Source: a virus
DNA: 64,000 nucleotides
Direction: 5' to 3' (one strand)
Virus record (IMG/VR): IMGVR_UViG_3300028800_000001
Span: 62,001-126,000 of that record
Positions 7,865-61,342 of this stretch are shown here, piece by piece; the stretch's first letter is position 1, and each line of letters opens with the position of its first letter. The notes under the pieces were generated by a model. The model was not told the DNA's origin and ran no database searches. It worked only from the letters and a program-made list of their open reading frames with translations. Both the position numbers and the translations under genes were made by a program.

Positions 7865-7918
7865 AGCATAGCGTAAAATACAGAAAACGTCAAGCGTTTT
7901 TTCTCTGTATTTTCAGAA
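7865..7918 (-). promoter_or_regulatory. Promoter with conserved upstream element (copy 1)
   Basis: On the minus strand: TTCTGAAAATAC, an A-rich block, -35 TTGACG (7893-7888), 17 bp, -10 TATGCT (7870-7865). The upstream element lies inside the end of the HNH gene, and its TTGA supplies that gene's TGA stop. It drives the operon 7832 to 1. Confidence 0.9.
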
Positions 7919-8498
7919 GATACTGGCGTACTCGGCACACGTCCTTTGGCGCAATAACCAGCAAAAGATCAGGATGACGATCCCTTTTCAAGCTATCGCA
8001 CTCGTCACAGGCCGGAACACAATTATCCCAGGTGGTGCCACCCCCTTTCGATATCGGAACGAAATGATCCATGCGTTTCCACGGTCGCCTTTGGCAATAG
8101 GCACACTGCTGTGCGAAGTAGTCCAGCGTTTCTCTCCACTCTGTGAGCGTCAAGGTTGCTGGCGTTCCAGCTTTGAGCGCACGTTGTCTTTGACGCTGAA
8201 TATACGCCTTTGACGCATGCATTGGGAGCGGCTCAAGTTCTTGCGGCTGTTCTTCTATCTCAGGCGTCAAGTTGGTAAGAAATTCGCTATAGACTTGTTG
8301 CTGGTAGAGCGAGGTTGCAGAGGAAAGCAGCGCATGCCCCTCTGCAACCAGATCACATTCTGGTCTTCGTAGTAGTTTTAGAAGGTATTCGTGTGCCTGA
8401 TATTTTTCAGAGAACGCAATGGAGGCGTCAGGATGTGCCTCCATGTAGCGTTTTCCCAGGCGCATGAGCCCTGTATAATAGGCAATCAACTCTTTCAT
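7890..8498 (-). CDS. HNH endonuclease, second of a tandem pair, 202 aa
   Basis: The HNH domain lies at about residues 134-180: CAYCQRR, then RMDHFVPISKGGG with the catalytic His, then WDNCVPACDECDSLK. The two CxxC pairs bind the structural zinc. The helical N-terminal region may bind DNA or a partner. It is paralogous to the upstream gene. The last codons and the stop are made by the promoter element at 7.9 kb. It may be a homing-type or restriction-like nuclease; the target is unknown. Confidence 0.85.
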   Translation of the reverse strand: MKELIAYYTGLMRLGKRYMEAHPDASIAFSEKYQAHEYLLKLLRRPECDLVAEGHALLSSATSLYQQQVYSEFLTNLTPEIEEQPQELEPLPMHASKAYIQRQRQRALKAGTPATLTLTEWRETLDYFAQQCAYCQRRPWKRMDHFVPISKGGGTTWDNCVPACDECDSLKRDRHPDLLLVIAPKDVCRVRQYLLKIQRKNA

Positions 8499-9070
8499 TT
8501 TTTACTTTGTAAGTACGTTTGTACTCTCGCTAGATCATCTGCCGGAAGGCCAATGCCTTCACTGAGCAGCTTCACACCTTTCTCCTGATCACAATACGAA
8601 CAAGCTGGAACACAGTTGTCCCAGGCCGTTCCCCCACCACGCGTAATAGGGATAAAGTGTTCTAGACATTCCCACAGCGCACGCTGACAATACGCACAGC
8701 GGTGATGAAAGTATTCTAACGTCTCTTTCCATTGTTCAACAGTGAGAGTGGCAGCGCGCCCTGCACGCTTCGCACGCAAATTATGCCAGAGAATATAGGC
8801 ATCTACATCCGTATAACGCCCTCGCAGCAGCAAGAGTGATGGATTTTCAGCGCGTAGCGTCTCAAGAAAGGTAGTGTAGACATTTTTCTCTAATGACGAT
8901 TTTGCCTGAGAAAGAAGTCGCTCCCCTTCCATTTCCCAGGCGTCTTCGTTCTTCTTTAGAATGGTAAGGATGCTTGCATAAGCGTCTGCTTTTTGCTTGA
9001 GTACGCGATGACGCGTACTGTTTTGCAGCGCCACACCAAACAATTGCTCATAATGCGTATGCATATTCAT
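8495..9070 (-). CDS. HNH endonuclease, first of a tandem pair, 191 aa
   Basis: Same architecture as its neighbour: a helical N-terminus of about 125 residues, then CAYCQRA, LEHFIPITRGGG and WDNCVPACSYCDQEK, i.e. both zinc CxxC pairs and the HNH histidines. The stop overlaps the next start (ATGA). The two proteins align over most of their length, so the pair arose by duplication. Confidence 0.85.
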   Translation of the reverse strand: MNMHTHYEQLFGVALQNSTRHRVLKQKADAYASILTILKKNEDAWEMEGERLLSQAKSSLEKNVYTTFLETLRAENPSLLLLRGRYTDVDAYILWHNLRAKRAGRAATLTVEQWKETLEYFHHRCAYCQRALWECLEHFIPITRGGGTAWDNCVPACSYCDQEKGVKLLSEGIGLPADDLARVQTYLQSKK

Positions 9071-9077
9071 CTCTTAT

Positions 9078-9455
9078 TTATTCCTCTAACCAGAGCATGC
9101 CATCAGAATAGTAAAGCATATCCTTCGTTCTCGGCAGCAAGTAACAGTGAACATCCGCGCCAACTTTCCCTACTTCAGTGAGTGGGTTAAAACAATAATG
9201 CGTACAAAATTCGCTATCCATCCATGCGGTCACCATATTGTTGCGTAGCAATGAAGTGGGAACATTTTTATTTTGAAGGACACGAATGTCATACTCTCCT
9301 TCGGCAACAACCAGGATCTCAAATTCTTTTCCCCAGGTGCGCAACAGGCCACCAACTGCACTGTCAGCCGTAGCCGCACATTCCCAGCAACCAGGACGAC
9401 CATCAAAGTAGGCCATATAATCATCCTGTCTTTTTTGCACTCGAATAACGGTCAT
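9078..9455 (-). CDS. Hypothetical protein, 125 aa
   Basis: No family recognised. The mixed alpha/beta protein has scattered Cys and His (PGCWEC, EFCTHYC, DVHC). Its start overlaps the stop of the 473-residue protein (ATGA). Confidence 0.7.
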   Translation of the reverse strand: MTVIRVQKRQDDYMAYFDGRPGCWECAATADSAVGGLLRTWGKEFEILVVAEGEYDIRVLQNKNVPTSLLRNNMVTAWMDSEFCTHYCFNPLTEVGKVGADVHCYLLPRTKDMLYYSDGMLWLEE

Positions 9456-10873
9456 TGTAATTCCTCCATCAGCAGCGCCATCAACGGAAAAGTAACCAGG
9501 AAACGTGAGCGCGACTGTTCTTCATCGCGCTTTACCAAAATGGCAAAGTTGGCTTTCGCCTGCCGTACCATTGGGCTGCTGTCAGAGAAACGTTCCAAGA
9601 CCTCCAACATGTCAGCATACGCGGCTTCTGTTTCCAGGCGAACGTAGAAACTTCCCTCCTTTTGAAGGTAGGGTGAGCAGGAGAAAAGCAAATCAGTAAG
9701 AAAACTCAGGTATTCTGCGTTGGTTGCCCCATAGTGGCGCGCATAGCGGTCGAAAAACGTTTGTTCATCCTCGTTGAGTAAAAGTACGGTTCCCTGCTCC
9801 ATATAGGCATAGACCTTTGGGAGTAAATGATCGCTCTTATAGATCTCAACATAGGTTGGCACATCACTGTAGTATGCTTTGCTCCATGGGATACTTTTCA
9901 TATCTACGTTGGCCCTTGCGCAGAGCGCCGCTGTACAGATCACGCTATTGCCGACGCCATACGGGTGCCCATCATCGTGATGCTCGAAGGCGATATTATA
10001 ACGCCATACAAAATGGCTGTGCCAGATATCTAGTGTGTAATAAATTGCGCTCTTGAGCAAATGAAACGAGCAGCAATGATTCATGCCATGAAACCAGAAC
10101 TTACAATTAGGAAGGCCACGCTGCCAGGGATCTGCATTTTCTATATGATGCACATAATCCGCAAAGTAGTCCTGCGGTGTGCTGTACTCCTGCGCAAGGT
10201 AGTGCTCAAGCAGTTTGACCATCGCATCATCATCAGGATGATCGTATTCCACCGGTTGATAGTGATCAGGCGTCTCATCAATTTCATTTTTGGTATGATT
10301 GTCAAAGTGCCCAATCTGATGCAGGTATTGCATGCGTGCTACACGTAGTAATCGGTGGCGTTCGCAGCATAGTAAGAAGGGGCGAAGCTCTGGAATGCAA
10401 TCAGCATAATAATGATCTTCGTTATAGGTAAGCGTAGAGTTGAGCCAATGACGATATTCATCAATGATCTCTTCTTTACTCGTTAAAAAGACGTGCCCAA
10501 CGTCACGGGCGGTAAAGTGGCGGTACTCTGCGTGTTGTGGTTCCAGACCAAGAATAAGCGCCTCGACAAAAGCCGCATCAAAAGACCAACTGATTGTGAA
10601 AAATTCGATGTCAGCAGAATAGCCAGAGACCATCGCCACCCGCCACTCTGAAGAAACGCCTTTGAATATTTTGGTGGGAAGACCACCTTGCATGTCGAGC
10701 GCTAAACGGAATTTGCGCTCATTGATCGGACGATGTGCCTCAATATGAAACATCACATCTTCATCCGAGATAGCAACCGCGTTGACCGTTTTCACATAAG
10801 GACGAATAGCCGTACAAAACTTCTTGGCGATAGTCATCACTTCGCCTTCGTATTTTCTGAGTGTGCTCATCAT
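9452..10873 (-). CDS. Hypothetical protein, 473 aa, His/Cys-rich
   Basis: One of the longest proteins in the window and not recognised. The middle section is rich in His, Cys and Trp, including CCERHRLLRV at about residues 171-180, WFHGMNHCCSFHLLK at about 264-278 and FEHHDDGHPYG at about 299-309, so a metal site is possible. The start is ATGATG after AAAGGAAA. A terminator at 10.9 kb lies just upstream, so expression needs read-through or a promoter not recognised here. Confidence 0.8.
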   Translation of the reverse strand: MMSTLRKYEGEVMTIAKKFCTAIRPYVKTVNAVAISDEDVMFHIEAHRPINERKFRLALDMQGGLPTKIFKGVSSEWRVAMVSGYSADIEFFTISWSFDAAFVEALILGLEPQHAEYRHFTARDVGHVFLTSKEEIIDEYRHWLNSTLTYNEDHYYADCIPELRPFLLCCERHRLLRVARMQYLHQIGHFDNHTKNEIDETPDHYQPVEYDHPDDDAMVKLLEHYLAQEYSTPQDYFADYVHHIENADPWQRGLPNCKFWFHGMNHCCSFHLLKSAIYYTLDIWHSHFVWRYNIAFEHHDDGHPYGVGNSVICTAALCARANVDMKSIPWSKAYYSDVPTYVEIYKSDHLLPKVYAYMEQGTVLLLNEDEQTFFDRYARHYGATNAEYLSFLTDLLFSCSPYLQKEGSFYVRLETEAAYADMLEVLERFSDSSPMVRQAKANFAILVKRDEEQSRSRFLVTFPLMALLMEELQ

Positions 10874-10895
10874 TTTCCTTTCTAAAAAATGATTG

Positions 10896-10928
10896 AAAAA
10901 AAAGGAGCGCCGTACTTGACGCCCCCTC
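10896..10928 (-). terminator. Intrinsic terminator
   Basis: On the minus strand, an eight-pair GC-rich stem (GGGGCGTC with GGCGCTCC, two wobble pairs) around a six-base loop is followed by eight T. It lies between the 43-residue gene and the 473-residue gene. Confidence 0.75.
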
Positions 10929-11060
10929 TTACCGACGCTCTTCTTGGCGTCGTTTCTCGCGCTCTTTTTCGCGTGCGCGCCGCTCTCGATCTAGCTCTGC
11001 AAACGTCTTGCCTACTTGTTCTGCTTTCTTGAGGTTCTGTATTGCCAGAAATGCATTCAT
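10929..11060 (-). CDS. Small charged coiled-coil-like protein, 43 aa
   Basis: ATG 11060 overlaps the upstream stop (ATGA). The C-terminal half is nearly all Arg, Glu and Lys (AREKEREKRRQEERR) and should be one charged helix. The terminator follows the stop directly. Confidence 0.65.
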   Translation of the reverse strand: MNAFLAIQNLKKAEQVGKTFAELDRERRAREKEREKRRQEERR

Positions 11061-11251
11061 TTTGGTGCTCTCTTTCCCAGATAACGAAAACTTTTTATCG
11101 AACTATTCACCGTCAAACCAGGATCAACGCGCACTGTCAGGTCAAGGATTTTGCCTTGTTTGTTCCGATAGATGTCCTCAATACGCCCAACGTAGTCTCG
11201 CGTCCCTCCTTCAAGAAGTTGCAAAGTATAAATCACATAATCACCAATCAT
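11057..11251 (-). CDS. Small beta-rich hypothetical protein, 64 aa
   Basis: First gene after the promoter at 11276-11329, with a strong AAAGGAGGAG site before ATG 11251. The sequence (YVIYTLQLLEGGTRDYVGRI) looks like a small beta barrel, but no family is assigned. Confidence 0.7.
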   Translation of the reverse strand: MIGDYVIYTLQLLEGGTRDYVGRIEDIYRNKQGKILDLTVRVDPGLTVNSSIKSFRYLGKRAPK

Positions 11252-11275
11252 TGTTTTGTTCTCCTCCTTTCTCTA

Positions 11276-11329
11276 AGTATAGGAAGTTTTTGGAGCCCCG
11301 TCAAGCGTTTCTTCTTTGTATTTTCAGAA
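11276..11329 (-). promoter_or_regulatory. Promoter with conserved upstream element (copy 2)
   Basis: Upstream element TTCTGAAAATAC, -35 TTGACG, 17 bp, -10 TATACT (11281-11276). It serves genes 11251 and 11060 before a terminator. Confidence 0.9.
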
Positions 11330-11397
11330 AAACTTGCAGCCTCCTGCTATACTAAGAGCGTACCTTTCTACAAAAATGAGAGGACCGACCTTATACA

Positions 11398-11889
11398 TCA
11401 AGGCGTCCTCTTCAATTCATCACGCAGCCATTCAAGATATTCAAGGCGTGCTTCTTCCTCTGAGACTTCACGCGTTGCCATGTAAAAGTCTTCAAAATCA
11501 CCACGAAAAAGATCTTGCAGAGCACTGATTTGTTCCTGTTGGGCGTTCCAGGCGTCTTCAATTTCAGAAAGATGATACCAGGACTCGCCTCCAGGGGTGT
11601 CTTGCCGATACCCAATAAGATAGTCAGTTGCCCACACTGACCAGCGTTCGTATTCCCATGCGGTTATTTTCTCCAGGTTTTGTTGGAGGATCATATAGAG
11701 CGTAGGTACTTCATCAGGCGCGGCCTGATAGTCTAGATGCGCAAAGCCAAAGTTGCCACCTTCATCTTTATAATTAAACCCATAGAGAAAGCGAGTATCT
11801 TCTACGCTTATCAATTTGTAGGTCAGTGCCAACTGATCCATCTCATCAGGTGTGGTCTTCGCCATAATGAGGCCGTACAAACTACTCAT
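11398..11889 (-). CDS. Hypothetical protein, 163 aa
   Basis: Acidic, mostly helical protein with a C-terminal charged helix (REVSEEEARLEYLEWLRDEL). ATG 11889 is chosen over a longer frame because it overlaps the upstream gene by eight bases and follows an AGGAAGGA site. No family recognised. Confidence 0.7.
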   Translation of the reverse strand: MSSLYGLIMAKTTPDEMDQLALTYKLISVEDTRFLYGFNYKDEGGNFGFAHLDYQAAPDEVPTLYMILQQNLEKITAWEYERWSVWATDYLIGYRQDTPGGESWYHLSEIEDAWNAQQEQISALQDLFRGDFEDFYMATREVSEEEARLEYLEWLRDELKRTP

Positions 11890-12085
11890 GTTCAAACATC
11901 CTTCCTGTCGCTGCGAACCGCGCAAGATATGGCAAGAGTTCCTGCATCTTTTTCTGAGTGAAAAGAATCGAGCCCAACCAAAGTTGCTCTTCAACAACCG
12001 ACGAGTTGCACACAACGTACTTTCTCTCGCGTGCGTCTACGTCCTCGATCAGCCCCAGGCCATTGTATTCTTGCTCTATTTTCAT
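11882..12085 (-). CDS. Hypothetical protein, 67 aa
   Basis: Small mixed protein with no recognised domain. Only a weak ribosome site precedes ATG 12085. The start is 16 bases from a perfect palindrome at 12101-12116, a possible operator in its control region. Confidence 0.65.
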   Translation of the reverse strand: MKIEQEYNGLGLIEDVDARERKYVVCNSSVVEEQLWLGSILFTQKKMQELLPYLARFAATGRMFEHE

Positions 12086-12100
12086 AATCTTTTACTTTCA

Positions 12101-12116
12101 GTGAATAAATATTCAC
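12101..12116. promoter_or_regulatory. Perfect palindrome GTGAATAAATATTCAC, candidate operator
   Basis: A 16-base inverted repeat (GTGAATA-AA-TATTCAC) lies between the divergent genes at 12085 (minus) and 12249 (plus). Its place just upstream of the minus-strand start suggests a repressor site; the winged-helix-like protein next door is the obvious candidate ligand. This is inference. Confidence 0.5.
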
Positions 12117-12175
12117 ATTTTTTATCACTTTGTTATCAAGTGTCGCTGCATTGTATAACATTTGTAAAAATGACC

Positions 12176-12205
12176 TTGCATATTCAGAATGCCCTCAGTT
12201 ATACT
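12176..12205 (+). promoter_or_regulatory. Plus-strand promoter
   Basis: -35 TTGCAT (12176-12181), 18 bp, -10 TATACT (12200-12205), about 43 bases before the start of the only convincing plus-strand gene. It lacks the upstream element of the minus-strand promoters. Confidence 0.6.
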
Positions 12206-12248
12206 GGTTTTGTGATGTTTTTCTACTAGTTGATTGGAGAGAAAACCT

Positions 12249-12947
12249 TTGCGCCCACCATCACTGATTCCGGCCATTCCATTTCGGCTCTTCTCAGAAC
12301 AACGCATTTGCGCGACGAAAACCAAAAGCGCTCCTACTATTTTGCATGCCTGTGCTTACGCAGATCACTGGAATGCGCAGACAAGAGAGATTTACGCCTT
12401 GCTTGACGGGATACGTACCAATGAGGATATTGCGCACCTGCTTGGACTCTCTGCGCTGGATGTTCGTCGCATTTTGAGTCTCTTTGCCATTATTGGCCTT
12501 GTTGACCTCTTTGACGAGAGCACCCAAAGCGTGCTAAGTTTTGATACCTATACCGTACGCAGAGCGGTTGACTTGCTCTACTTTGAACGCGATATTTTCC
12601 TGACACGCTTCTTTCAACTGCTCTTTCAAAACAGCGACTACACCATGCAGGAAAGCGCCGCGTTCTTTTCGTTTCTGCAATTCGTGGCGCGTGGCGGAAC
12701 CACGACCAAGCCCTTTTTTGCGGTCATTCAACAAGCAGGGCAAGAGCACCATGTCATGTCGCTTACCCAAGAGCAATGCGCGGCTATCAGCCTTGCCTTT
12801 TTTGTCGCGGCAGAACACACGCTGGGCTCCTGGTGGAACGAAACGCGTGCACACCACCTGCGCAACGCGTTCTTTCTCGTGACTGATACGCTCTTTACGC
12901 AAGAGTTAACCCAACAAGATTTTCATCACTTGCTCGCCGTATCGTAG
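12249..12947 (+). CDS. Winged-helix-like protein, 232 aa, only clear plus-strand gene
   Basis: Residues about 36-90 read REIYALLDGIRTNEDIAHLLG-LSALDVRRILSLFAIIGLVDLF, the helix-turn-helix plus wing pattern of winged-helix regulators and of PatA/DUF4388-type modules. The C-terminal 120 residues are helical and aromatic and unrecognised. TTG 12249 is preferred because GGAGAG lies seven bases upstream. Its 3' end overlaps the convergent minus-strand gene by 42 bases. Opposite orientation and divergent control mark it as a candidate regulator of the element. Confidence 0.7.
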   Translation: MRPPSLIPAIPFRLFSEQRICATKTKSAPTILHACAYADHWNAQTREIYALLDGIRTNEDIAHLLGLSALDVRRILSLFAIIGLVDLFDESTQSVLSFDTYTVRRAVDLLYFERDIFLTRFFQLLFQNSDYTMQESAAFFSFLQFVARGGTTTKPFFAVIQQAGQEHHVMSLTQEQCAAISLAFFVAAEHTLGSWWNETRAHHLRNAFFLVTDTLFTQELTQQDFHHLLAVS

Positions 12948-15250: not shown

Positions 15251-15304
15251 AGTATAGCGCAGGCACGCTACAACGTCAAGGCTTTTTTCTCTGTATTTTC
15301 AGAA
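15251..15304 (-). promoter_or_regulatory. Promoter with conserved upstream element (copy 3)
   Basis: TTCTGAAAATAC upstream element, -35 TTGACG, 17 bp, -10 TATACT (15256-15251). It drives genes 15150 to 12906 through the structured leader. Confidence 0.9.
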
Positions 15305-19576: not shown

Positions 19577-19630
19577 AGTATACCGCTCTCCAGTTACGGC
19601 GTCAAGAAAATATTCATCGTATTTTCAGAA
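19577..19630 (-). promoter_or_regulatory. Promoter with conserved upstream element (copy 4)
   Basis: TTCTGAAAATAC, the variant A-block GATGAATATTTT, -35 TTGACG, 17 bp, -10 TATACT (19582-19577). It drives genes 19547 to 15307. Confidence 0.9.
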
Positions 19631-24850: not shown

Positions 24851-24904
24851 AGTATACCTGAGCGGAGAAAAAACGTCAAGGGTTATTTCTCTGTATTTTC
24901 AGAA
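24851..24904 (-). promoter_or_regulatory. Promoter with conserved upstream element (copy 5)
   Basis: TTCTGAAAATAC element, -35 TTGACG, 17 bp, -10 TATACT (24856-24851). The element encodes the C-terminal SENTEK of the 46-residue gene upstream. It drives genes 24807 to 19728. Confidence 0.9.
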
Positions 24905-27867: not shown

Positions 27868-27921
27868 ATGATACGTCATTCAAGGAGAAACGTCAAGTGT
27901 TTTTTCTATGAATATTCAGAA
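27868..27921 (-). promoter_or_regulatory. Promoter with conserved upstream element (copy 6)
   Basis: Variant element TTCTGAATATTC, -35 TTGACG, 17 bp, -10 TATCAT (27873-27868). The element supplies the SEYS-stop of the HD gene. The leader TATAAGAAATAAACGAAAA matches that of copy 17. Confidence 0.85.
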
Positions 27922-28689: not shown

Positions 28690-28743
28690 ATTATAGCGCA
28701 GCTTTTTAGCGAAGACAAGTATTTCTTCTATAGATATTCAGAA
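28690..28743 (-). promoter_or_regulatory. Promoter with conserved upstream element (copy 7)
   Basis: Element TTCTGAATATCT, -35 TTGTCT, 17 bp, -10 TATAAT (28695-28690). Drives the HD hydrolase. The leader TAATTTTAGAAAA and TTAATTCAAGGAG parallel copy 13. Confidence 0.85.
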
Positions 28744-28807: not shown

Positions 28808-28996
28808 TTACTTTGTTACCTCTACGTCTCCCAGTAGCGCGTCCAAGGTTTTGCGGCGTATCCGGTAGCCCTGGCGCTCGTTGACGTGTGGTAGTACCAC
28901 TGCCTCTAGCGCCCCTTGTTTAACCCAGCGGCGTACCGTTGTGTCATCCACGCGCAGAATATCGGCAACTTCCGAAATTGTCAGTAAATCACTCAT
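28808..28996 (-). CDS. Excisionase-type (MerR-like) helix-turn-helix protein, 62 aa
   Basis: The sequence ISEVADILRVDDTTVRRWVKQGALEAVVLP is the classic excisionase/HTH_17 DNA-binding fold: helix, turn, RRWVKQG recognition helix and wing. It could be a recombination directionality factor or repressor. ATG 28996 has GGAGGAAATAGGT upstream and overlaps the previous gene by eight bases. No integrase is seen in the window. Confidence 0.85.
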   Translation of the reverse strand: MSDLLTISEVADILRVDDTTVRRWVKQGALEAVVLPHVNERQGYRIRRKTLDALLGDVEVTK

Positions 28997-29364: not shown

Positions 29365-29418
29365 ATTCTACCCGATCCCCACCACACTTGTCAATGTTTT
29401 TTCTGTTTATCTTCTGAA
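29365..29418 (-). promoter_or_regulatory. Promoter with conserved upstream element (copy 8)
   Basis: Element TTCAGAAGATAA, -35 TTGACA, 18 bp, -10 TAGAAT (29370-29365). The longer spacer is balanced by a one-base shorter element, so the total span stays 54 bp. Its element encodes the FFRR-stop of the gene at 29407. Confidence 0.8.
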
Positions 29419-34107: not shown

Positions 34108-34161
34108 AGTATAGGCCATTTCTCACAGAACGTCAAGAATATTTTCATAGTATTTTCAGAA
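34108..34161 (-). promoter_or_regulatory. Promoter with conserved upstream element (copy 9)
   Basis: TTCTGAAAATAC, variant block TATGAAAATATT, -35 TTGACG, 17 bp, -10 TATACT (34113-34108). It drives the 11-gene operon 34069 to 29407. Confidence 0.9.
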
Positions 34162-36969: not shown

Positions 36970-37195
36970 GATCGTCTCCCAAAAGTTCTACTAAAATGGC
37001 TGCTTTTTCCTCGTCATCGGCCTGCGCAAAATGCTCTTTTGTGAAGCGCTCACTTGTCATACGCTCTTTGTGTTTGCGCATACGCGTGCGCATAGCTTTG
37101 CTGAATCTGCGCATGTCTTTCTGGTGCACGAAACTAAGAATTGTAAAACCCGTTCCGGCAAAGAGGAGTACCAATAGTAATAAGATGTCGTGCAT
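36962..37195 (-). CDS. Single-pass membrane protein, 77 aa
   Basis: MHDILLLLVLLFAGTGFTILSFV forms one N-terminal membrane helix; the rest is a basic then acidic helix. ATG 37195 overlaps the TAA of the kinase gene (TAATG). A longer frame is rejected. Confidence 0.7.
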   Translation of the reverse strand: MHDILLLLVLLFAGTGFTILSFVHQKDMRRFSKAMRTRMRKHKERMTSERFTKEHFAQADDEEKAAILVELLGDDHE

Positions 37196-38046
37196 TAAAA
37201 ATCTCCCTCTGCGACTTGCAGACAGGTAAGTCCAAGCGACCGCCAAAGCCGCACTACTTGTGCGCGGTCATCAAGTGCGTACTTCACGTTGTATTTCCCT
37301 TCGATTTGCTCGTGATACATTTCTTCTTTGACGATGAAGTCTTTTCTGAAGTCACCATCTTTACGCATGAAGAGATCGTGTGCTTCGAAACAAAAACCAG
37401 CGGCTCGAAGCCATGTATAGGTCGCTTCACGAAATTTATCGTTACGTCCAGAGGTGAAGAGGATCGTGGTACCTTGACTGATTTCGCTAAAAACAAGTCC
37501 GGCCACGACACTATTGACGATGTCCTCAGAAAAATCACGATCATAGGGATTGGCATCTCCAAAGAGCGCAAGCGTCCCATCCAGATCTACAATAATTGCT
37601 TGCGGTGCGCCCTCAACAGGTGCAGGTGGAACTATCGGTTTTGCCAGATACCTGTTGTACATATCACGGATAACTTTTTCCCCGACATAGTTCTGGCGTT
37701 TTTTATCACGAGCAATACACTCATCCACCGTGACGTGTGTGAAGTCTTTTATTTCTAACTTCGCGTTATTCTTCTTGGCACACTCTTGCCACATTGTTTG
37801 CGCAGAAGGTGAAAGATTACAATCATCCACCACAATATTCCACCCCCTCGCAAAGAAATAGTCAGCATGCAACAATTCTAACGCTCGTATATCTTTTTCT
37901 TTTGACGAAGAGCTCTGCCCTGCATCCGTCATCTCACGGAGTAAATCCCTGTTTATTCTTTTATAGTGCTCGTCGTGCACCAACTGCTTTGCATAGGTAC
38001 TTTTCCCAGAGGCCGGTAAGCCCAAAGTTATGATGAGTGTCTTCAA
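37195..38046 (-). CDS. pseT: Polynucleotide kinase/3'-phosphatase, T4 Pnkp type
   Basis: End-healing enzyme: it phosphorylates 5'-OH and removes 3' or 2',3'-cyclic phosphates on RNA or DNA, preparing ends for a ligase. The N-terminal kinase has P-loop GLPASGKS (residues 9-16) and the expected helical lid. The C-terminal phosphatase begins near residue 150 with IIVDLDGTLAL, the DxDGT nucleophile motif, followed by FTSGRND. At 283 residues it is slightly shorter than the T4 enzyme (301) but has both domains in the T4 order. An Rnl1-type ligase is in the next operon upstream. Confidence 0.93.
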   Translation of the reverse strand: MKTLIITLGLPASGKSTYAKQLVHDEHYKRINRDLLREMTDAGQSSSSKEKDIRALELLHADYFFARGWNIVVDDCNLSPSAQTMWQECAKKNNAKLEIKDFTHVTVDECIARDKKRQNYVGEKVIRDMYNRYLAKPIVPPAPVEGAPQAIIVDLDGTLALFGDANPYDRDFSEDIVNSVVAGLVFSEISQGTTILFTSGRNDKFREATYTWLRAAGFCFEAHDLFMRKDGDFRKDFIVKEEMYHEQIEGKYNVKYALDDRAQVVRLWRSLGLTCLQVAEGDF

Positions 38047-39268: not shown

Positions 39269-39322
39269 AGTATAGGTCGAAATAAAAAAGAAGTCAAGCA
39301 TTTTTTCTCTGTATTTTCAGAA
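39269..39322 (-). promoter_or_regulatory. Promoter with conserved upstream element (copy 10)
   Basis: TTCTGAAAATAC, -35 TTGACT, 17 bp, -10 TATACT (39274-39269). It drives the ten-gene operon 39235 to 35211, including Pnkp. Confidence 0.9.
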
Positions 39323-42730: not shown

Positions 42731-42784
42731 ATTATACGGCAGGAAACACGAAAAGACAAGCGTTTTTTCTATGAATATTCAGAA
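42731..42784 (-). promoter_or_regulatory. Promoter with conserved upstream element (copy 11)
   Basis: Element TTCTGAATATTC, -35 TTGTCT, 17 bp, -10 TATAAT (42736-42731). It drives the Rnl1 operon 42669 to 39342. Promoter and leader closely match the copy before the HD hydrolase (28690). Confidence 0.88.
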
Positions 42785-42840: not shown

Positions 42841-43137
42841 TTACTCAGGTGCAATCGTAGCGGTCAACCCTGTACTTTGAATACGCTCTTGATAGAGTTC
42901 TGCAACCTCTTTCATACAGACCACCACGACGGCTTTGCCCTCTTTATGGGCGGTCGCCACAATAGTAGTTACATTTTGCAGTCCTGGGACTGCTTTCTTG
43001 ATCGCCTGAATAACATATTCAAATGTGTGATAATCATCATTATGAAGAAGCACCGCAAAGCGGCCAAAGAACATTTCTTTGTACTTCTCCATTACATCTG
43101 GTTTAATCAATACTTCGTTCAACGTCTCACCTTTCAA
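42841..43137 (-). CDS. clpS: ClpS-like protease adaptor, 98 aa
   Basis: ClpS binds N-degron substrates and delivers them to ClpAP/ClpCP, changing protease specificity. The core reads AVLLHNDDYHTFEYVIQAIKKAVPG, with the conserved NDDYHTFEYV of the substrate pocket, then VATAHKEGKAVVVVCMKEVAELYQERIQSTGL and a C-terminal TIAPE. Length is normal. It is the last gene of its operon, ahead of a strong terminator. ATG 43137 is coupled to the upstream stop. Whether it redirects or blocks the host protease is unknown. Confidence 0.85.
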   Translation of the reverse strand: MKGETLNEVLIKPDVMEKYKEMFFGRFAVLLHNDDYHTFEYVIQAIKKAVPGLQNVTTIVATAHKEGKAVVVVCMKEVAELYQERIQSTGLTATIAPE

Positions 43138-45656: not shown

Positions 45657-45710
45657 AGCATAGCCGGTTGCAAGAAGAAAGTCAATATATTTTTCTATGT
45701 ATTTTCAGAA
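45657..45710 (-). promoter_or_regulatory. Promoter with conserved upstream element (copy 12)
   Basis: TTCTGAAAATAC, -35 TTGACT, 17 bp, -10 TATGCT (45662-45657). It drives the seven-gene operon ending with ClpS. Confidence 0.9.
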
Positions 45711-48592: not shown

Positions 48593-48646
48593 AGTATAGG
48601 TCAGAGAAGAAAAGAAGTCAATAGTTTTTTCACTGTATTTTCAGAA
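48593..48646 (-). promoter_or_regulatory. Promoter with conserved upstream element (copy 13)
   Basis: TTCTGAAAATAC, -35 TTGACT, 17 bp, -10 TATACT (48598-48593). It drives the membrane/LemA operon 48539 to 45715. Confidence 0.9.
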
Positions 48647-49111: not shown

Positions 49112-50395
49112 CTAATAACTATAGCCATCGATTTTGTACAACGACTGACAATATCTATAGCTAATTCCTTCAGTAACTCCGTTTTTCGTTGCAATATTAA
49201 AGCTTCCGGTAGAGCGTATTGCAACCTTTCCAATGTATGTACCCGTCTTTTTCCCTTTTGTGATAATGGCTTTTACGATGTCACCGGTTTGAAAACCATG
49301 CACAACCTTTGCTTGCTTTGGCCCTGTTCTTGGGAAGCCAAAGCAATTCATTCTGCACATTTGTCTCGATCCATGCCCAATAGCTTTTATATGCAAAGGT
49401 TGAATATCTCTAAGCGATAGTATTTCAGGGGTACTTTTGCCTACACATACCGCATCAATCCAATGTTCTTTTGAAAGTTGCCTCAAAGAACGATTGTATT
49501 TTGTTAGTCCACCAGAGCCAACTTCAACAGGCAATCCAGCTTTCTTTAATTCCTCATATAATCGCCACCTTGTACTATTCACCGCAGCCGCATCTTTGAG
49601 CGGCTTCTTTAGTTGCGCAAGAATCTTATCCAGTCGCTTCTTGTCATGTTGCAAGAAATCCTGAATATCTTTCGTGTCTTTCTTTTTATTGCATGGTTCG
49701 CAAGCCAAACAAAGATTAGAGATTCGATCCGAACCGCCCTTTGATCTTGCTACTACATGCTCAATCTCCAGAGGCACATTCTCAGCGTCACAGTAACCGC
49801 ATTTTCGCTCCCATTTTTCTAATAGGTACTCTCTAATCTCATAGCCTTGCAGTGTACCTTGTTGATATTCAAATCCTGATATTTCTGGATTTTCCATTTT
49901 TTGCAGATCAAAGCGAACCAATTCTTGCGAGATAGCAACAAGGTTGCAAAGCAATCTCAGCTTTCTCATCCACGTAAGGATATTTTGTATTCTGCTCTCA
50001 AGCGATGGCGCTATCCAACCTTTCTTCTTGTTCCTACGATTAAGAAAACGTGGCTGACGATATCTTGTTTTTCTTTGTCTACGCGACCTTCGAATCATTT
50101 TCCTATCGGCAAGCGCTTTTCCAATAGTGTTCCCACGATGTTCAAGTTCTACGCCAAAGACAACTTCACCCGACTGATCATTTACAATGGCGATACCGGT
50201 TGTCTTTGAACCAGGATCAAGCTTTATTCGCAATGGCTCAACAATTGGATTATTTACTTCTCGTTTTAAGACGATTGTAAACGGATATCTTTTAAAAACG
50301 GCTGCTTTTCCTGAAGAGAGCAATCTCCTTGCTTCCCCTGGATGTACCGGATTTAGAATCTGTTTCTTCGTATCTAATACAAACACTTTTAACAT
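49112..50395 (-). CDS. iscB: IscB RNA-guided nuclease, 427 aa
   Basis: IscB is the ancestor-type relative of Cas9 that uses an omega-RNA to nick and cut DNA. Domains in order: PLMP N-terminal domain (LDTKKQILNPVHPGEARRLL), RuvC-I LDPGSKTTGIAIV with the catalytic Asp, an Arg-rich bridge helix (RRSRRQRKTRYRQPRF), RuvC-II VAISQELVRFD, HNH with CGYCDAENVPLEIEHVVARS and CEPCNKK, RuvC-III HWIDAV, and a C-terminal target-motif-interaction domain. All catalytic residues are visible, so it looks intact. ATG 50395 matches the usual MLKVFVLD start; the upstream in-frame extension overlaps the guide RNA. Confidence 0.93.
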   Translation of the reverse strand: MLKVFVLDTKKQILNPVHPGEARRLLSSGKAAVFKRYPFTIVLKREVNNPIVEPLRIKLDPGSKTTGIAIVNDQSGEVVFGVELEHRGNTIGKALADRKMIRRSRRQRKTRYRQPRFLNRRNKKKGWIAPSLESRIQNILTWMRKLRLLCNLVAISQELVRFDLQKMENPEISGFEYQQGTLQGYEIREYLLEKWERKCGYCDAENVPLEIEHVVARSKGGSDRISNLCLACEPCNKKKDTKDIQDFLQHDKKRLDKILAQLKKPLKDAAAVNSTRWRLYEELKKAGLPVEVGSGGLTKYNRSLRQLSKEHWIDAVCVGKSTPEILSLRDIQPLHIKAIGHGSRQMCRMNCFGFPRTGPKQAKVVHGFQTGDIVKAIITKGKKTGTYIGKVAIRSTGSFNIATKNGVTEGISYRYCQSLYKIDGYSY

Positions 50396-50399: not shown

Positions 50400-50640
50400 T
50401 GCTCTTTCAAGCCTCCGCTTTCGCGGGTAATGGTCAACTCGACAATGTTACAAAACGGTTTTGTATGATTACTACACTGGCTTTACCCTTCCGCCTGTTT
50501 AATAGTAATCCGCAGAGGATAAGACTGTTGAAGCATCCTATCGTGCCTATATATTCGCTTTTAACGTAGATTTTCTTTCAAATCTGAGTCTGGTCAAATT
50601 GGTGGGCTCTCACAAGCCCCTGTGTTTTAATCAGGGGTAT
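50400..50640 (-). ncRNA. Probable omega-RNA of IscB
   Basis: About 240 bases between the left-end hairpin and the iscB start carry no gene. The minus strand begins with the CCCCTG/CAGGGG hairpin, continues with paired segments (for example GCTTGTGAGAGC) and ends CCCGCGAAAGCGGAGGCTTGAAAGAGC just before ATG. This is the normal place and orientation for an omega-RNA, whose guide would extend 5' into the flanking DNA. Exact ends not determined. Confidence 0.65.
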
Positions 50641-50672
50641 TTGACACTTCTTCTGACTGCGCGCCCCTGCCA

Positions 50673-54170: not shown

Positions 54171-54224
54171 AGTATAGGGCATTTACACTAACGCGTCAAG
54201 AATATTTTCACTGTATTTTCAGAA
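54171..54224 (-). promoter_or_regulatory. Promoter with conserved upstream element (copy 14)
   Basis: TTCTGAAAATAC, -35 TTGACG, 17 bp, -10 TATACT (54176-54171). It drives genes 54133 down to the IscB insertion and perhaps 48704. Confidence 0.9.
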
Positions 54225-55038: not shown

Positions 55039-55092
55039 ATGATAGCGCATTCAGGGAGTGGCGTCAAGTGTTTTCTCTATGAGTTTTCAGAA
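55039..55092 (-). promoter_or_regulatory. Promoter with conserved upstream element (copy 15)
   Basis: Variant element TTCTGAAAACTC, -35 TTGACG, 17 bp, -10 TATCAT (55044-55039). It lies inside the 3' end of gene 55077 and supplies its SENS-stop. The leader matches copy 6. Confidence 0.87.
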
Positions 55093-55668: not shown

Positions 55669-55671
55669 CTC

Positions 55672-56249: not shown

Positions 56250-56303
56250 AGTATAGAGCACATCTGCGTAAAAGACAAGTGTTTTTTCTATGTATTTTCA
56301 GAA
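56250..56303 (-). promoter_or_regulatory. Promoter with conserved upstream element (copy 16)
   Basis: TTCTGAAAATAC, -35 TTGTCT, 17 bp, -10 TATACT (56255-56250). It supplies the SENT-stop of gene 56288 and drives 56212 to 55077. Confidence 0.9.
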
Positions 56304-56494: not shown

Positions 56495-56504
56495 AAAGAA
56501 ACCT

Positions 56505-56540: not shown

Positions 56541-56564
56541 CACGCGCAGGCACAGTTCTATGCG

Positions 56565-56765: not shown

Positions 56766-56767
56766 TG

Positions 56768-57208
56768 TTACAGTTTCTCCTCATTGTCTACTCGCACACA
56801 ATTGACACCAGCCGCTTCAAGATATGCCTGCTGCGTTGGAAAGCCAAGTAAAGATATGCGAATATCATTATACGCTTTTTCGTAGTATACCATACTTATT
56901 CCAAAATTAATAAGGTGCTGGCAACAATGGACGCAAGGTGCGTGCGTACAATACAAAAAAGCGTCTCCCGTGTGCGGCCCCGCGAAAAGCAATGCGTTTG
57001 TTTCCGCATGCACACAGCGAATACAATGCCCATCATGCACCAGACAATTGTCCTGGGTGCAATGCGCCAGATGACGTGGCGCACCATTAAAACCGGTTGA
57101 AAGAATACGATCCTGTGCCACCAGGAGTGCGCCCACCTGCGCACGCTGACAGGTGGAACGCTGCGCAACACTGCGCGCCAAAGAAAGGTAATACGCGTGC
57201 CTATTCAT
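56768..57208 (-). CDS. dCMP deaminase (ComEB-like), 146 aa
   Basis: It converts dCMP to dUMP, feeding dTMP synthesis during phage replication. The zinc site is HAETNALLF (His and catalytic Glu) followed by THAPCVHCCQHLINFGI (PCxxC). An additional Cys/His-rich loop (CTQDNCLVHDGHCIRCVHAE) matches the second structural zinc of T4-type dCMP deaminases. ATG 57208 overlaps the sigma gene stop (ATGA), so the two are co-translated. No thymidylate synthase is visible here. Confidence 0.88.
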   Translation of the reverse strand: MNRHAYYLSLARSVAQRSTCQRAQVGALLVAQDRILSTGFNGAPRHLAHCTQDNCLVHDGHCIRCVHAETNALLFAGPHTGDAFLYCTHAPCVHCCQHLINFGISMVYYEKAYNDIRISLLGFPTQQAYLEAAGVNCVRVDNEEKL

Positions 57209-57783
57209 GCCGCTACCTCTTCGCATTCTTGATAAAGCAGATATTTACTTTGTGTGCGCTTGAGCATATTGAACACGGTCACCTGGGAGTACTTCTTCTC
57301 AAAACGTTTCGAAAGCGCTTTGGCGCACTCCGCTTGCGTACAATCAGGATGCTTCATACGGTAGACAATGAGGAAGTACTCATCGCGTTTCACCGTCGTC
57401 AAAAAGTGTTTGAACGTCTCCATAAATTCGATAGTTTCAAACGCGTCTTCTTCGTCTTGAAGCCACTCCTGGGCTCCTCCAAATTCTTCGCCTTCGACAA
57501 AGTCTACGCCACTTTCTTGCCCCTCTTGCAAAAGCGTTAAGCTCTCAATGCGTGACTGCTGATACTCTTCACCAATATAGGTGTTCATACGATTTTGAAT
57601 AGCGCGTATCGCATACGCAGCGAAGCCATTGCCCCGCTCTGGTTTATAGGTTCTCTCTGCCTCTACCAACGTAAGCGCGGCAACGGCCTCCAGATCTTGA
57701 TAATCATAGAGGCCGTTATATTTTTCTACATAGCGCTGGGCATGTTTACGAGCAAGAGGAAGATATTGTTCCGATAGTCTCAT
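57205..57783 (-). CDS. Sigma-70-family RNA polymerase sigma factor, 192 aa
   Basis: It would direct RNA polymerase to chosen promoters. Residues about 10-65 match region 2: RKHAQRYVEKYNGLYDYQDLEAVAALTLVEAERTYKPERGNGFAAYAIRAIQNRM, including the core-binding and -10-recognition helices. An acidic linker (about 90-125) follows. The last 60 residues (DCTQAECAKALSKRFEKKYSQVTVFNMLKR) form a region-4-like helix-turn-helix. It is a candidate for reading the repeated promoters of this element. ATG 57783 follows CTGGAGAATAG. Confidence 0.82.
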   Translation of the reverse strand: MRLSEQYLPLARKHAQRYVEKYNGLYDYQDLEAVAALTLVEAERTYKPERGNGFAAYAIRAIQNRMNTYIGEEYQQSRIESLTLLQEGQESGVDFVEGEEFGGAQEWLQDEEDAFETIEFMETFKHFLTTVKRDEYFLIVYRMKHPDCTQAECAKALSKRFEKKYSQVTVFNMLKRTQSKYLLYQECEEVAA

Positions 57784-57794
57784 TCTATTCTCCA

Positions 57795-57830
57795 GAAAAA
57801 AAGTAATGGGCGTTTTTTCAAGGAACACCC
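57795..57830 (-). terminator. Intrinsic terminator ahead of the sigma gene
   Basis: GGGTGTT/AACGCCC stem (one wobble pair) with an A-rich loop, then ATTACTTTTTTT on the minus strand, just before the sigma factor's ribosome site. Confidence 0.65.
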
Positions 57831-57843
57831 GAAACCTGATGAG

Positions 57844-58416
57844 TTATTTTTTCTTATAAAGAGCATTTACCGTGTCGCGCATGCGGTCTGCACGAGAACG
57901 ATTACGTGACTCAATCTCAAGCGCGGCCTCCACCACATTCAACTGTACCAAGCTTTGCATTTGTAATTTTGGTGCATTTGGTTCATCGATACTGGCCCCA
58001 CTTGGCGTCATAATCTGATACTTGCACGCTTCGTAGAGATTGGCAATAATAATTTGCCCAAAGGTTCGATAGAGCTCGTCAACAAGAGCATCCTTGAGTT
58101 GCGGCATTGCCGTGAGTAGTGTTGAAGTTCCTACCAACATACTTTTGAGCATGTCTCCCTTTGCCTGGGAAAGCGCAACATACCATTGCCAACGCGCCTC
58201 GCTGGAGCTTAGGAACACCACGCGCATCATTTGCGTCACTTCGTGGTTATAGTGGATGCCCTGCATATGCATCACGCTAATCTCCTGGGCACGAGTGCTA
58301 AAGTTATTCATCACAGTACAATAAACATCATCATCTTCGTCAACGTGGCGATAGCAGGTGATGCCGCCAAGCACCACCGGCTCCACCATCAACTTATGTG
58401 GACAGGGAAATTGCAT
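57844..58416 (-). CDS. Hypothetical protein, paralogue of 39342-39806, 190 aa
   Basis: The N-terminal 65 residues (MQFPCPHKLMVEPVVLGGITCYRH) are unique and may bind metal. Residues about 72-185 align with the protein at 39342-39806, including WYVALS, DELYRTFGQIIIANLYEACKYQI and a C-terminal basic helix. Family unknown. It lies between the VWA protein and the sigma factor. Confidence 0.75.
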   Translation of the reverse strand: MQFPCPHKLMVEPVVLGGITCYRHVDEDDDVYCTVMNNFSTRAQEISVMHMQGIHYNHEVTQMMRVVFLSSSEARWQWYVALSQAKGDMLKSMLVGTSTLLTAMPQLKDALVDELYRTFGQIIIANLYEACKYQIMTPSGASIDEPNAPKLQMQSLVQLNVVEAALEIESRNRSRADRMRDTVNALYKKK

Positions 58417-58430
58417 CGTTGTTCTCCTTA

Positions 58431-59969
58431 TTAATAGCGCTCACGCAATCGCACTACTGTCTGATAGAGCACCTCTGTGATCTCCTCAATCTTGCAGTAA
58501 TACGCCCTACGACCAAGAATTTCCCGATTCCCTGAGAGATCATGTTCATAACCCGTCAAGTAAATGACCAGGACTTCATCAATATTTTGCTCCTCAATGA
58601 GTCGGTCGGCAAGCACTTTCGCCTTGTTACGATCCGCAAAGCCACCATCAGTGAGGATACACAATATCTTTTGCGCATGTCCAAAGTCAGCGGTTTCCAG
58701 TATTTCCATTGCTTTTGCGATTTGTGTGCCACCGTCCGTATACGGATAGAGCAAACTTTCCATCAACAGTTCATCTGGTAGTTTTACCACCTTTGCGCTG
58801 TCAGCAAAGTCAATTTGAGCGCTGCGCACCAGAGGAATATCCGTGAGCGCTGCATGAAGCATCACGCACGCCTCTGCGTATTCGTTCATATCATCACACG
58901 TGGAGTCAGAAACGTCGCGCACAATCCACATGGTGAGCGCTGGAACAATGCGTCGTGGCTCTGTGAAACTGGGCTCCTCATCATCACTAAAGGAACCAGC
59001 ATACGCTTCGACAAGATCGGCAATCTCACCGCAATCATCACGCGTGCGCGCCTCATCCCATCCTTCGCGTGTCTGGCGGAAAATGGTATGTAGTTCTTGA
59101 ATTTCTTGAGCGCGCTTCGTAATTGTTTGGCGACAAAAGGCGTTGGTCTTGTCTTCTAGCGTCAGATCATGATCGCTTTGTCCAATTTCCTTTGCTTTTT
59201 CTTTGCTTTCCGCTGTGTCGTTAACTTGCTCAACGAGCTCACGAATACCACTGTCAGCAACGCTCTGACCTTCGAGCACCTGCTCAATTTCTTCGTCTCC
59301 AATGCCGACCTTGACGACTTTTCCACTCCTCAAGCTCTTTTGGAGCTCTGCATCGCTATCGCATGCTTCCAAAATCCACAGATAAATCGGGGTGCAAGAT
59401 TCTAACAGGTTTTGTCGTTCATTCACAATTGCACTAAGCGTATAAGGAAGGAAGAACGAAACAAAATTCATGTCGTCTACTTTTTCGTCAATGACACCAA
59501 AGCGTGTCACACGAAAAAGCGTTTGTAAGAGCGCAATGACCTTGCTCTTCGTTTTTTCATCGCTTGATTTAATGCCTTCAAGCGTTGGTTTAATAGAGGC
59601 TAGTGTCCAGCGTAGCGGCCCCGCGTGCGCAGGATAATCATACCAGAGGCTATTTTCGATCCTGCTGTCGTCAATAACATTGTCAATGTAGTGAAAGAGC
59701 CCATCGTCAAAGCTCTTTACACCAGAGAAACTTTCCGAGCGGATGTGGCAGACTTCATGGGTGAGAAACCCCAGGCTGTAGTACTCCAGAGAAACAAAAT
59801 CATGTACCCACGACTCTTCATAGTGCTTTTTAATTTGCGCATCATTGAGTGTAATAAGATAGTCCTGCCCTTTGGGCTGTACCCAGGCAATATCTTTATT
59901 GTCAGGTCGCCAGATGTGCTTTATTTCGACGCTATGCTCCGGTATCAATTGTAATGGCTGAAAAGGCAT
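58431..59969 (-). CDS. VWA-domain protein with HExxH-like N-terminus (CobT-like), 512 aa
   Basis: Partner-type protein for a MoxR/CobS ATPase. The C-terminal VWA domain starts near residue 345 with WIVRDVSDST (MIDAS DxSxS), continues with TDGGTQ and LTDGGFADRN, and ends at the C-terminus. The N-terminal part has GFLTHEVCHIR, an HExxH-like motif as in CobT and related putative metallopeptidases. An acidic middle region links them. The pair with the AAA+ gene just upstream suggests a chaperone or chelatase-like remodelling machine; the substrate is unknown. Confidence 0.82.
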   Translation of the reverse strand: MPFQPLQLIPEHSVEIKHIWRPDNKDIAWVQPKGQDYLITLNDAQIKKHYEESWVHDFVSLEYYSLGFLTHEVCHIRSESFSGVKSFDDGLFHYIDNVIDDSRIENSLWYDYPAHAGPLRWTLASIKPTLEGIKSSDEKTKSKVIALLQTLFRVTRFGVIDEKVDDMNFVSFFLPYTLSAIVNERQNLLESCTPIYLWILEACDSDAELQKSLRSGKVVKVGIGDEEIEQVLEGQSVADSGIRELVEQVNDTAESKEKAKEIGQSDHDLTLEDKTNAFCRQTITKRAQEIQELHTIFRQTREGWDEARTRDDCGEIADLVEAYAGSFSDDEEPSFTEPRRIVPALTMWIVRDVSDSTCDDMNEYAEACVMLHAALTDIPLVRSAQIDFADSAKVVKLPDELLMESLLYPYTDGGTQIAKAMEILETADFGHAQKILCILTDGGFADRNKAKVLADRLIEEQNIDEVLVIYLTGYEHDLSGNREILGRRAYYCKIEEITEVLYQTVVRLRERY

Positions 59970-60065
59970 AAGAATACACCTCCTTTTTGAGATGATTTTA
60001 AATGTAAGAGAGACAAACGCGTAAGGAGTGCAACGATGAGTATTTGGTACGCGTTTGTCTCCTTC

Positions 60066-60117
60066 AGTATACCTGCTTTCGCAAGAAATGTCAATAAATT
60101 TCTAAGTATTTTCAGAA
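60066..60117 (-). promoter_or_regulatory. Promoter with conserved upstream element (copy 17)
   Basis: TTCTGAAAATAC, a shortened A-block, -35 TTGACA, 17 bp, -10 TATACT (60071-60066). The span is 52 bp. It drives VWA, the 57844 protein, sigma and dCMP deaminase. Confidence 0.87.
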
Positions 60118-60118
60118 C

Positions 60119-61237
60119 TTACCAGAGTTTGCCTGCCAATTCATCTTTTACCGTTCGTCCGTGGACGCCTTGTCCGTCAATCGGCATGCCATGCCCTACA
60201 CTTGCCAAAATTTCGTTACGCACCTTTTGGCCGCCAATATAGCTGACGTATTTCTTCATCTCAATAACGCGTGGATCAGCCAGTTCATTACGAGACACGG
60301 CAGGGTTGTCACCATACATATAATCGTAGAGCCGTTTTGTAAGCGGAGCGACAGCCACCCCTGGCCCTTCGAATACATCATCCATCTTAATTGTTTTGGG
60401 ATCAAACGGAGTACGCTTATTCTTAAAGACGTAAGCGACCTGGGCACGTACAAGTGCCTGACTCATGTTACGAATGGAAAGCGGGTAACTCTCGGTACGT
60501 GCGGCGCGTACATAGCCGGTGACCAGACGTGCAAAACTTTCAGGAACGCTGAAGGGTTTGGGATTCCATACCTTCGGTGGATCGAGTGCCGCCCATTCTT
60601 CGCTCTTGAAGATTTGGCCGCGCTCGTACTTGTCAGAGGCCATCTGGATTGCAACAGCAAGCTCTGTCTCATAAAGCGGATAATCAAAGTTGTACGGATA
60701 GAAACGCTGGCCTGTGCTTTGTGGGATTTTGATATTGCCGACATGCTTGTCGTCATTACTACAAAACATGATGCGGAAGTACTTATTCGCTTCAACGAAC
60801 ATGTCACCGGTCGCTGTCACACTGTCCTCATCCAATACGGTGTTGTACATCGTAATGCCGGAAGCATCTCGTGCATGCGTAAGCTCGTCAATGATGACAG
60901 CCGCGCCTTCGCTCATCGCCGTCGCGACGATACCGAGCACATCTTGCGTGCTGCCAGCAATCAGACGGGTACCAGCAATCGCTTTCGTTTTGGTAACCTC
61001 TGGACTATTTTGAAAGTAGTAAAGATTGCAGCCTACGCGCTCACAATATTTCGCCATAACGAGCTTGGCGAAGTGTGTTTTGCCGGAGCCAGAGGGGCCA
61101 ATAAGATAGGGCACAAAGCCCATATAAATGAGCTCCAATATTTCTTCAGCCCGTTCTAAAAGGTCAACGCCGGTAATGCCCCGCTCCTTAATTTTTACTA
61201 AATCAAGCGGGGTGAACTTCTCTGCGGTAATAACCAT
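60119..61237 (-). CDS. AAA+ ATPase, MoxR/CobS type, 372 aa
   Basis: Hexameric-type ATPase expected to act with the VWA protein. Walker A is GPSGSGKTHFAK (about residues 42-53), Walker B AAVIIDELTHA (about 112-122), and FCSNDD is a sensor-1-like Asn block. It lacks the N-terminal domain of larger AAA+ proteases, as usual for MoxR/CobS. CobS-like proteins also occur in T4-like phages, where their role is unresolved. It has its own promoter. The stop lies one base before the next promoter element. Confidence 0.87.
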   Translation of the reverse strand: MVITAEKFTPLDLVKIKERGITGVDLLERAEEILELIYMGFVPYLIGPSGSGKTHFAKLVMAKYCERVGCNLYYFQNSPEVTKTKAIAGTRLIAGSTQDVLGIVATAMSEGAAVIIDELTHARDASGITMYNTVLDEDSVTATGDMFVEANKYFRIMFCSNDDKHVGNIKIPQSTGQRFYPYNFDYPLYETELAVAIQMASDKYERGQIFKSEEWAALDPPKVWNPKPFSVPESFARLVTGYVRAARTESYPLSIRNMSQALVRAQVAYVFKNKRTPFDPKTIKMDDVFEGPGVAVAPLTKRLYDYMYGDNPAVSRNELADPRVIEMKKYVSYIGGQKVRNEILASVGHGMPIDGQGVHGRTVKDELAGKLW

Positions 61238-61287
61238 GTAATTTTCTCTTTTCTTATTAAAATTTTTCAGGAACGCTGAACTTTATA

Positions 61288-61342
61288 ATAATAGCGCACA
61301 TCTTTGAAAGAAGTCAAGCATTTTTTCACTGTATTTTCAGAA
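61288..61342 (-). promoter_or_regulatory. Promoter with conserved upstream element (copy 18)
   Basis: TTCTGAAAATAC, -35 TTGACT, 18 bp, -10 TATTAT (61293-61288), span 55 bp. It drives the AAA+ gene. Confidence 0.85.

Follow-up and report, generated by a model that had tools for sequence, protein, structure and literature searches.

The early promoters of phage T4 combine an UP element, a -35 hexamer, a TGn motif and a -10 hexamer and compete for the host RNA polymerase (PMC2988021). Together with T7 A1 and lambda PL, they belong to the very strong host-type promoters of phages (PMC2988021). UP elements are contacted by the C-terminal domains of the polymerase alpha subunit (alpha-CTD) at a proximal (-45 to -37) and a distal (-58 to -45) subsite (PMC2613000). 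In other promoters, a box for the activator MotA replaces the -35 hexamer and is centred at -30 (PMC2988021). Here, we describe a promoter module that recurs on the minus strand of a 64,000-nucleotide stretch of viral DNA (the window), which covers positions 62,001-126,000 of the 327,295-base IMG/VR record IMGVR_UViG_3300028800_000001 (G000). We think it probable that these modules constitute one phage-specific class of strong early-type promoters, which are read by a host sigma70-type RNA polymerase with UP-type alpha-CTD contacts. The record is an uncultured tailed jumbo phage of 327 kb and carries genes for an HK97-type major head protein, a head protease, a tape measure protein, a DnaE-like DNA polymerase, a helicase and an endolysin. 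When the first 25 kb were compared by megablast with 50,697 phage records, no relative was found.

Per-column statistics were calculated from 35 copies with standard spacing. The upstream end of the module is a 12-bp box, TTCTGAAAATAC, at -60 to -49, which is followed by A-K-W-G-AAAAAA at -48 to -39, C at -36, the -35 hexamer TTGAC(G/T) at -35 to -30 and T at -29. At the other end of the spacer we found TG at -17/-16, S-S at -14/-13, TATACT at -12 to -7 and T at -6. The core thus has the features of a housekeeping sigma70-type promoter (-35 near TTGACA, -10 near TATAAT, 16-18 bp apart). The TTG and the C of TTGAC are present in all 35 copies and TAT..T of the -10 hexamer is nearly invariant. 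The same invariance as for the TTG was observed for -59T, -58C, -56G and -45G (35/35), and -49C was found in 33 copies. A sequence-only reading of the window had noted fixed TTCTG and C positions that go beyond simple A-tracts, and the counts for -58C, -56G and -45G bear this out. The same reading had described two A blocks with an 11-base period just upstream of -35, at the position of an UP element. Indeed, the A-tracts occupy -55 to -50 and -44 to -39, 11 bp or one helical turn apart, and both fall inside the published UP subsites.

The T4 early promoters are many strong host-type promoters over short operons, as the modules would be, and share with them A-tracts at the alpha-CTD subsites and conserved bases beyond the core (PMC2988021). 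For comparison, 35 early-type promoters were extracted from the T4 record by the same method, a rough set with some false positives. In these, A is slightly preferred at -51 to -49 and at -40, and G is mostly fixed at -36 alone. By contrast, the upstream part of the module hardly varies along its 12 bp and has fixed C and G. The cores differ as well, since the module has TTGAC(G/T) rather than GTTTAC(A/T) at -35, TATACT at -10 and, instead of the extended -10 TGn (-15/-14), S at -14/-13 and TG at -17/-16. Like the module, the UP element of the Escherichia coli rrnB P1 type has a pair of A/T-rich subsites in the region from about -58 to -37 (PMC2613000). The description of these subsites includes A/T richness but no fixed C/G box, whereas TTCTG and C flank the distal tract of the module. 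T7 A1 and lambda PL are single promoters and involve neither a genome-wide module nor an invariant distal box. T7 A1 combines TTGACT and GATACT with upstream A-tracts, and the TTGTC of one module sub-form resembles the -35 element of rrn P1. Taken together, the TTCTG and C of the box lie beyond both the ordinary UP element and the T4 class.

The copies in the window are the following:

7865..7918, minus strand, promoter module; element start 7918; TTGACG N17 TATGCT; leader of 32 nt to gene 7590-7832
11276..11329, minus strand, promoter module; TTGACG N17 TATACT; leader of 24 nt
15251..15304, minus strand, promoter module; TTGACG N17 TATACT
19577..19630, minus strand, promoter module; TTGACG N17 TATACT
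24851..24904, minus strand, promoter module; TTGACG N17 TATACT
27868..27921, minus strand, promoter module; element form TTCTGAATATTC; TTGACG N17 TATCAT
28690..28743, minus strand, promoter module; TTGTCT sub-form with TATAAT; adjoins terminator-like hairpin and T-run of the upstream unit
29365..29418, minus strand, weak copy; TTCAGAAGATAA; 12-nt linker; TTGACA N18 TAGAAT
34108..34161, minus strand, promoter module; TTGACG N17 TATACT; adjoins terminator-like hairpin
39269..39322, minus strand, promoter module; TTGACT N17 TATACT
42731..42784, minus strand, promoter module; TTCTGAATATTC; TTGTCT N17 TATAAT sub-form; terminator-like hairpin upstream
45657..45710, minus strand, promoter module; TTGACT N17 TATGCT
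48593..48646, minus strand, promoter module; TTGACT N17 TATACT
54171..54224, minus strand, promoter module; TTGACG N17 TATACT; terminator-like hairpin upstream
55039..55092, minus strand, promoter module; TTCTGAAAACTC; TTGACG N17 TATCAT
56250..56303, minus strand, promoter module; TTGTCT N17 TATACT
60066..60117, minus strand, module with short (11-nt) linker; precedes a gene run with sigma factor and dCMP deaminase genes
61288..61342, minus strand, promoter module; TTGACT N18 TATTAT

All 18 minus-strand modules claimed by the sequence-only reading were recovered at their places by an independent scan, 17 of them as strong copies and one, at 29.4 kb, as a weak copy. The latter has three mismatches in the element and TAGAAT at -10, stays below the matrix cut and overlaps with its element the 3' end of the upstream gene. 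A weight matrix built from 16 window copies was run with a cut of 26 bits over 222 kb, made up of the window and eight further stretches, and the same DNA read backwards was used as control. Here, 40 copies scored above 26 bits and nothing in the control exceeded 5 bits, so that the count of 18 understates the feature. About 87 kb of the record were covered only by a strict pattern (TTCTGAAnATnC-N3-GAA-N7-TTGnC-N18-TAT), and 18 kb (228-246 kb) were read without matrix scoring. Across the whole record, this pattern has 30 matches, and its reversed form, which served as control, has none. Since four strict-pattern sites lie outside the matrix-scored stretches, the record carries at least 44 copies.

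The module is phage-specific. Bacterial and archaeal genomes with a total of 257 billion bases gave only two matches to the strict pattern, about as many as expected by chance. In the viral collection, the pattern occurs in six stretches, three of which are contigs that are nearly identical to the phage or carry the same module sequences, and the remaining three share one common site with a different linker sequence. The near-identical contigs among the matches are L009, L012 and L014, and L036 bears the copies of 254-264 kb. Single sites in L010, L011, L013, L015 and L037-L039 were judged to be chance matches, and a match in the Vequintavirinae phage LTH01 was rejected since there is no -10 hexamer at the right distance. 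Searches of viral contigs with the AAA ATPase, the helicase and the sigma factor of the phage yielded no relatives of the regulon. Short contigs with a major capsid protein at 80-84% identity carry no convincing module; they cover the structural block, which is module-poor in this phage, too. When intergenic promoters were searched for by their -35 and -10 hexamers alone (at most one mismatch in total, box not used), 47 were obtained. The box was present with at most four mismatches in 37 of them and the other ten had at least six mismatches. Thus, almost every good host-type promoter of the phage belongs to the module class.

More detailed inspection of the spacing modifies one of the earlier claims. 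Fifteen window copies combine a 13-nt linker between box and -35 with a 17-bp spacer and span 54 bp. The copy at 29418, in which a 12-nt linker precedes an 18-bp spacer, also spans 54 bp. The outliers are the 61342 copy (18-bp spacer, 55 bp) and the 60117 copy (11-nt linker, 52 bp). The 54-bp span in 16 of 18 copies and the 18-bp spacer in two (61342 and 29418) therefore stand, whereas the rigid distance runs to the -35 and not to the -10 hexamer. Among the 40 matrix copies, the spacer measures 17 bp in 38 and 18 bp in two, and the box is separated from -35 by exactly 13 nt in 37. Both strong copies with an 18-bp spacer (record positions 123342 and 216170) keep the 13-nt linker and span 55 bp. 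The distance is 11 nt in three copies (record positions 122117, 221743 and 287909), in which the box and the GAAA block hold their mutual register and the shortening lies between the GAAA block and -35. Because the linker stays fixed and the shortened copies keep this register, the box and the second A-tract form one unit that is registered to -35 and not to -10.

The summed column values give an information content of about 18 bits for the box, 13 bits for the -48 to -36 block, 9 bits for the -35 and 9 bits for the -10 hexamer. Some 14 bits are enough to place 44 sites on both strands of 327 kb (654 kb of strand), so that the information in the module goes far beyond the needs of a single reader. 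The identity among copies is 0.89 in the box and drops to background in the middle of the spacer (0.26) and in the -80 to -61 flank (0.29). These data indicate that position-specific selection and not recent duplication maintains the element, although shared sub-forms (TTCTGAATATTC with TTGTCTTTT and TATAAT) suggest that some copies may have a common descent. These sub-forms and a common leader (AAGAAATAAACGAAA) might imply a dispersed repeat family, spread by recent duplication or as a small mobile element, instead of selected promoters. This is highly improbable; an origin by duplication was rejected since spacer and flank are at background identity, and the placement of the copies with respect to genes is fixed.

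Nearly all copies are intergenic, have the orientation of the next gene and lie mostly 17-64 nt before its start codon. Judged from the sequence, such leaders are compatible with a transcription start 5-8 nt after the -10 hexamer. Directly before eight of the 40 copies there is a terminator-like hairpin with a T-run, which was the case for 3.4% of random positions, and one copy, in a stretch rich in tRNA genes, immediately follows a tRNA-Val gene. In the four stretches that hold structural and replication genes (126-166, 180-200 and 278-298 kb; 80 kb in total), we counted only five copies, three of which are on plus-strand units. Elsewhere, 35 copies were counted in 142 kb, and at that density about 20 would be expected in the 80 kb. 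These counts fit the placement of a T4-like early class, which stands before early and not before structural genes. The downstream genes in the window code mostly for small proteins without known family, and the other products include a ClpS-like protein, a polynucleotide kinase, RNA ligases, a dCMP deaminase and an IscB. Such gene types would be expected in an early region.

How might the module work? In the explanation we favour, the host sigma factor would read TTGAC(G/T) and TATACT across 17 bp and two alpha-CTDs would bind the A-tracts at -55 to -50 and -44 to -39, with an additional specific contact at the fixed TTCTG and C that surround the distal tract. The array of modules would then capture the host polymerase immediately and drive transcription of dozens of short non-structural operons. 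Of 48 substitutions in the A-tracts, 34 retain A or T, which is what minor-groove reading would allow and which we counted in favour of UP-type contacts. A gene for the beta subunit of a multisubunit RNA polymerase (rpoB-type, Rpb2 domain) was searched for in the phage and was not found, and the control search performed well.

Several observations weigh against this explanation. Minor-groove reading by alpha-CTD predicts no invariant box, but TTCTG and -49C vary about as little as the -35 hexamer, and the preference is not limited to A/T minor-groove tracts, as the counts for -58C, -56G and -45G (35/35) and -49C (33/35) indicate. The T4 early-type promoters have no fixed box, and the roughly 31 bits upstream of -35 exceed the 14 bits needed for about 44 sites. 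Moreover, the alpha-CTD preferences and the sigma consensus of the host are assumed. Either the host's alpha-CTD or the local DNA shape accounts for the reading of TTCTG, or a second protein does. A second sequence-specific reader of the box is plausible.

Such a reader might be a dedicated DNA-binding protein, an early or virion protein of the phage or a regulator of the host, which recognizes TTCTGAAAATAC at -60 to -49 and leaves the core to the host sigma factor. It would contact alpha-CTD on the proximal A-tract and boost or later shut off the regulon. We regard this proposal as possible but tentative. Since host sigma reads the core in both cases, it overlaps with the UP-type early reading. 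The invariant C and G of the box, the excess information upstream of -35 and the lack of such a box in the T4 early-type promoters argue for it. So does the fact that box and GAAAA block keep their 11-bp register where -35 is 1-2 bp closer, as one bound unit would do. About half of the copies contain a short inverted repeat (TCTG-N6-CAGA), but four base pairs are short enough for chance. Among the phage genes, at least one (28808-28996) codes for a small HTH protein, but no candidate protein could be linked to the box. Furthermore, the -35 and -10 hexamers are near consensus, unlike those of known activator-dependent promoters such as T4 middle and P2 late. In the late promoters of P2 and P4, the activator (Ogr/Delta) binds near -55, at about the position of the module box, and acts via the alpha subunit; unlike the module, these promoters lack a good -35 element and depend on the activator. 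It is possible, though less likely than not, that an undescribed phage or host protein on TTCTGAAAATAC, together with alpha-CTD on the adjacent A-tract, controls the at least 44 near-consensus promoters in an architecture for activation or timed shut-off that differs from MotA, Ogr and a plain UP element.

A MotA-like middle-promoter system, as considered in the sequence-only reading, finds no support. The T4 middle promoters (MotA/AsiA) also combine a phage-specific box in many promoters with a sigma70 -10 hexamer, but their box is centred at -30 in place of -35, whereas TTGAC is intact in all strong module copies and the box lies at -60 to -49, 25 bp upstream of -35. A search of the record for the C-terminal domain of MotA (MotCF) gave no match, although the control search was weak.

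Two further features of the window bear on the role of the phage's own sigma factor:

57205-57783, minus strand, phage sigma factor gene; Sigma70_r2 (Pfam E 1e-8); PHROG sigma factor
59990..60066, minus strand, predicted leader RNA from the promoter at 60117; starts with a long, strong hairpin (-23.2 kcal/mol, z -5.7)

This sigma factor might read the module on the host core polymerase, which would make the module a middle or late promoter. A gene with sigma region 2 is present and a single-sequence structure model gives C-terminal helices of moderate confidence. However, only region 2 is clear, no -35-reading domain was recognized in the protein, and the model (pLDDT 53) is too weak to judge such a domain. 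In addition, the module hexamers match the housekeeping sigma factor, the module is mostly missing before structural genes and the short-linker copy at 60117 appears to drive transcription of the sigma gene itself. We therefore consider this alternative improbable, and the phage sigma factor is more likely a switch to a later programme than the reader of the module. When 49 upstream regions of the structural and replication stretches were searched for a late motif by expectation-maximisation, only weak T-rich patterns were obtained, and the T4-type TATAAATA was not enriched (10 vs 16 in the reversed control). In the short-linker (11 nt) sub-class (60066-60117, G000:287909 and 221743), one copy stands before the run of sigma and dCMP deaminase genes and another before a gene run with a helicase; the predicted leaders of these two open with a hairpin.

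If the modules are host-read early promoters, they mark operon starts, separate non-structural from structural gene blocks and provide a readable transcription map for an uncultured jumbo phage. The fixed distal box tests the reach of alpha-CTD in sequence reading or points to an undescribed regulator. At G000:309986-309995 (L024:9986-9995), a minus-strand module is paired with a divergent plus-strand promoter (TTGACA-N17-TATACT), and 9 bp separate the outer end of the module element from the start of the plus-strand -35. The element thus lies immediately upstream of both promoters and may be one box that serves both directions.

Some of the neighbouring genes deserve mention. The small protein encoded at window positions 42841-43074 (gene assigned by eye) resembles the ClpS protease adaptor (PF02617, E 1.2e-15) and is a possible host-takeover protein. 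The polynucleotide kinase gene lies at 37195-38046 and the window contains two RNA ligase genes; in T4, polynucleotide kinase and RNA ligases are the set for repairing tRNAs cut by host defence. At least ten tRNA genes were found in the phage stretch L022. An IscB-like RNA-guided nuclease (RRXRR and HNH) is encoded in this jumbo phage at window positions 49112-50395, with a HEARO/omega RNA (136 bits) directly upstream at 50427-50645, and the near-kin contig L036 carries 69% similar DNA (3833-5075). The contigs with capsid proteins of 80-84% identity (L026-L035) range in GC content from 34% to 58%, a spread that is unusual for so similar a capsid protein, and a relative at 50% reaches 62%.

Outside the window, a non-coding stretch of 1.8 kb (G000:235265-237080; L042:7265-9080) has a GC content of 32% and contains 71 TAATTA and 22 GGTATC. 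The A/T pattern of this stretch shows a sharp periodicity of 10.48 bp with about 30 times the mean power, and repeats occur at multiples of 10.5 bp on both strands. A blastn search among phage records found no relative of this array, which looks like a helically phased nucleoprotein scaffold, perhaps an origin, a partition or a packaging site. Sequences of the AATTAATTTT type were observed before the tape measure gene (L020, about 5081-5150) and before another gene of the structural block (L021, about 10854-10940); the record contains 25 occurrences of AATTAATTTT compared with two in the reversed control, partly owing to the 235-kb array.

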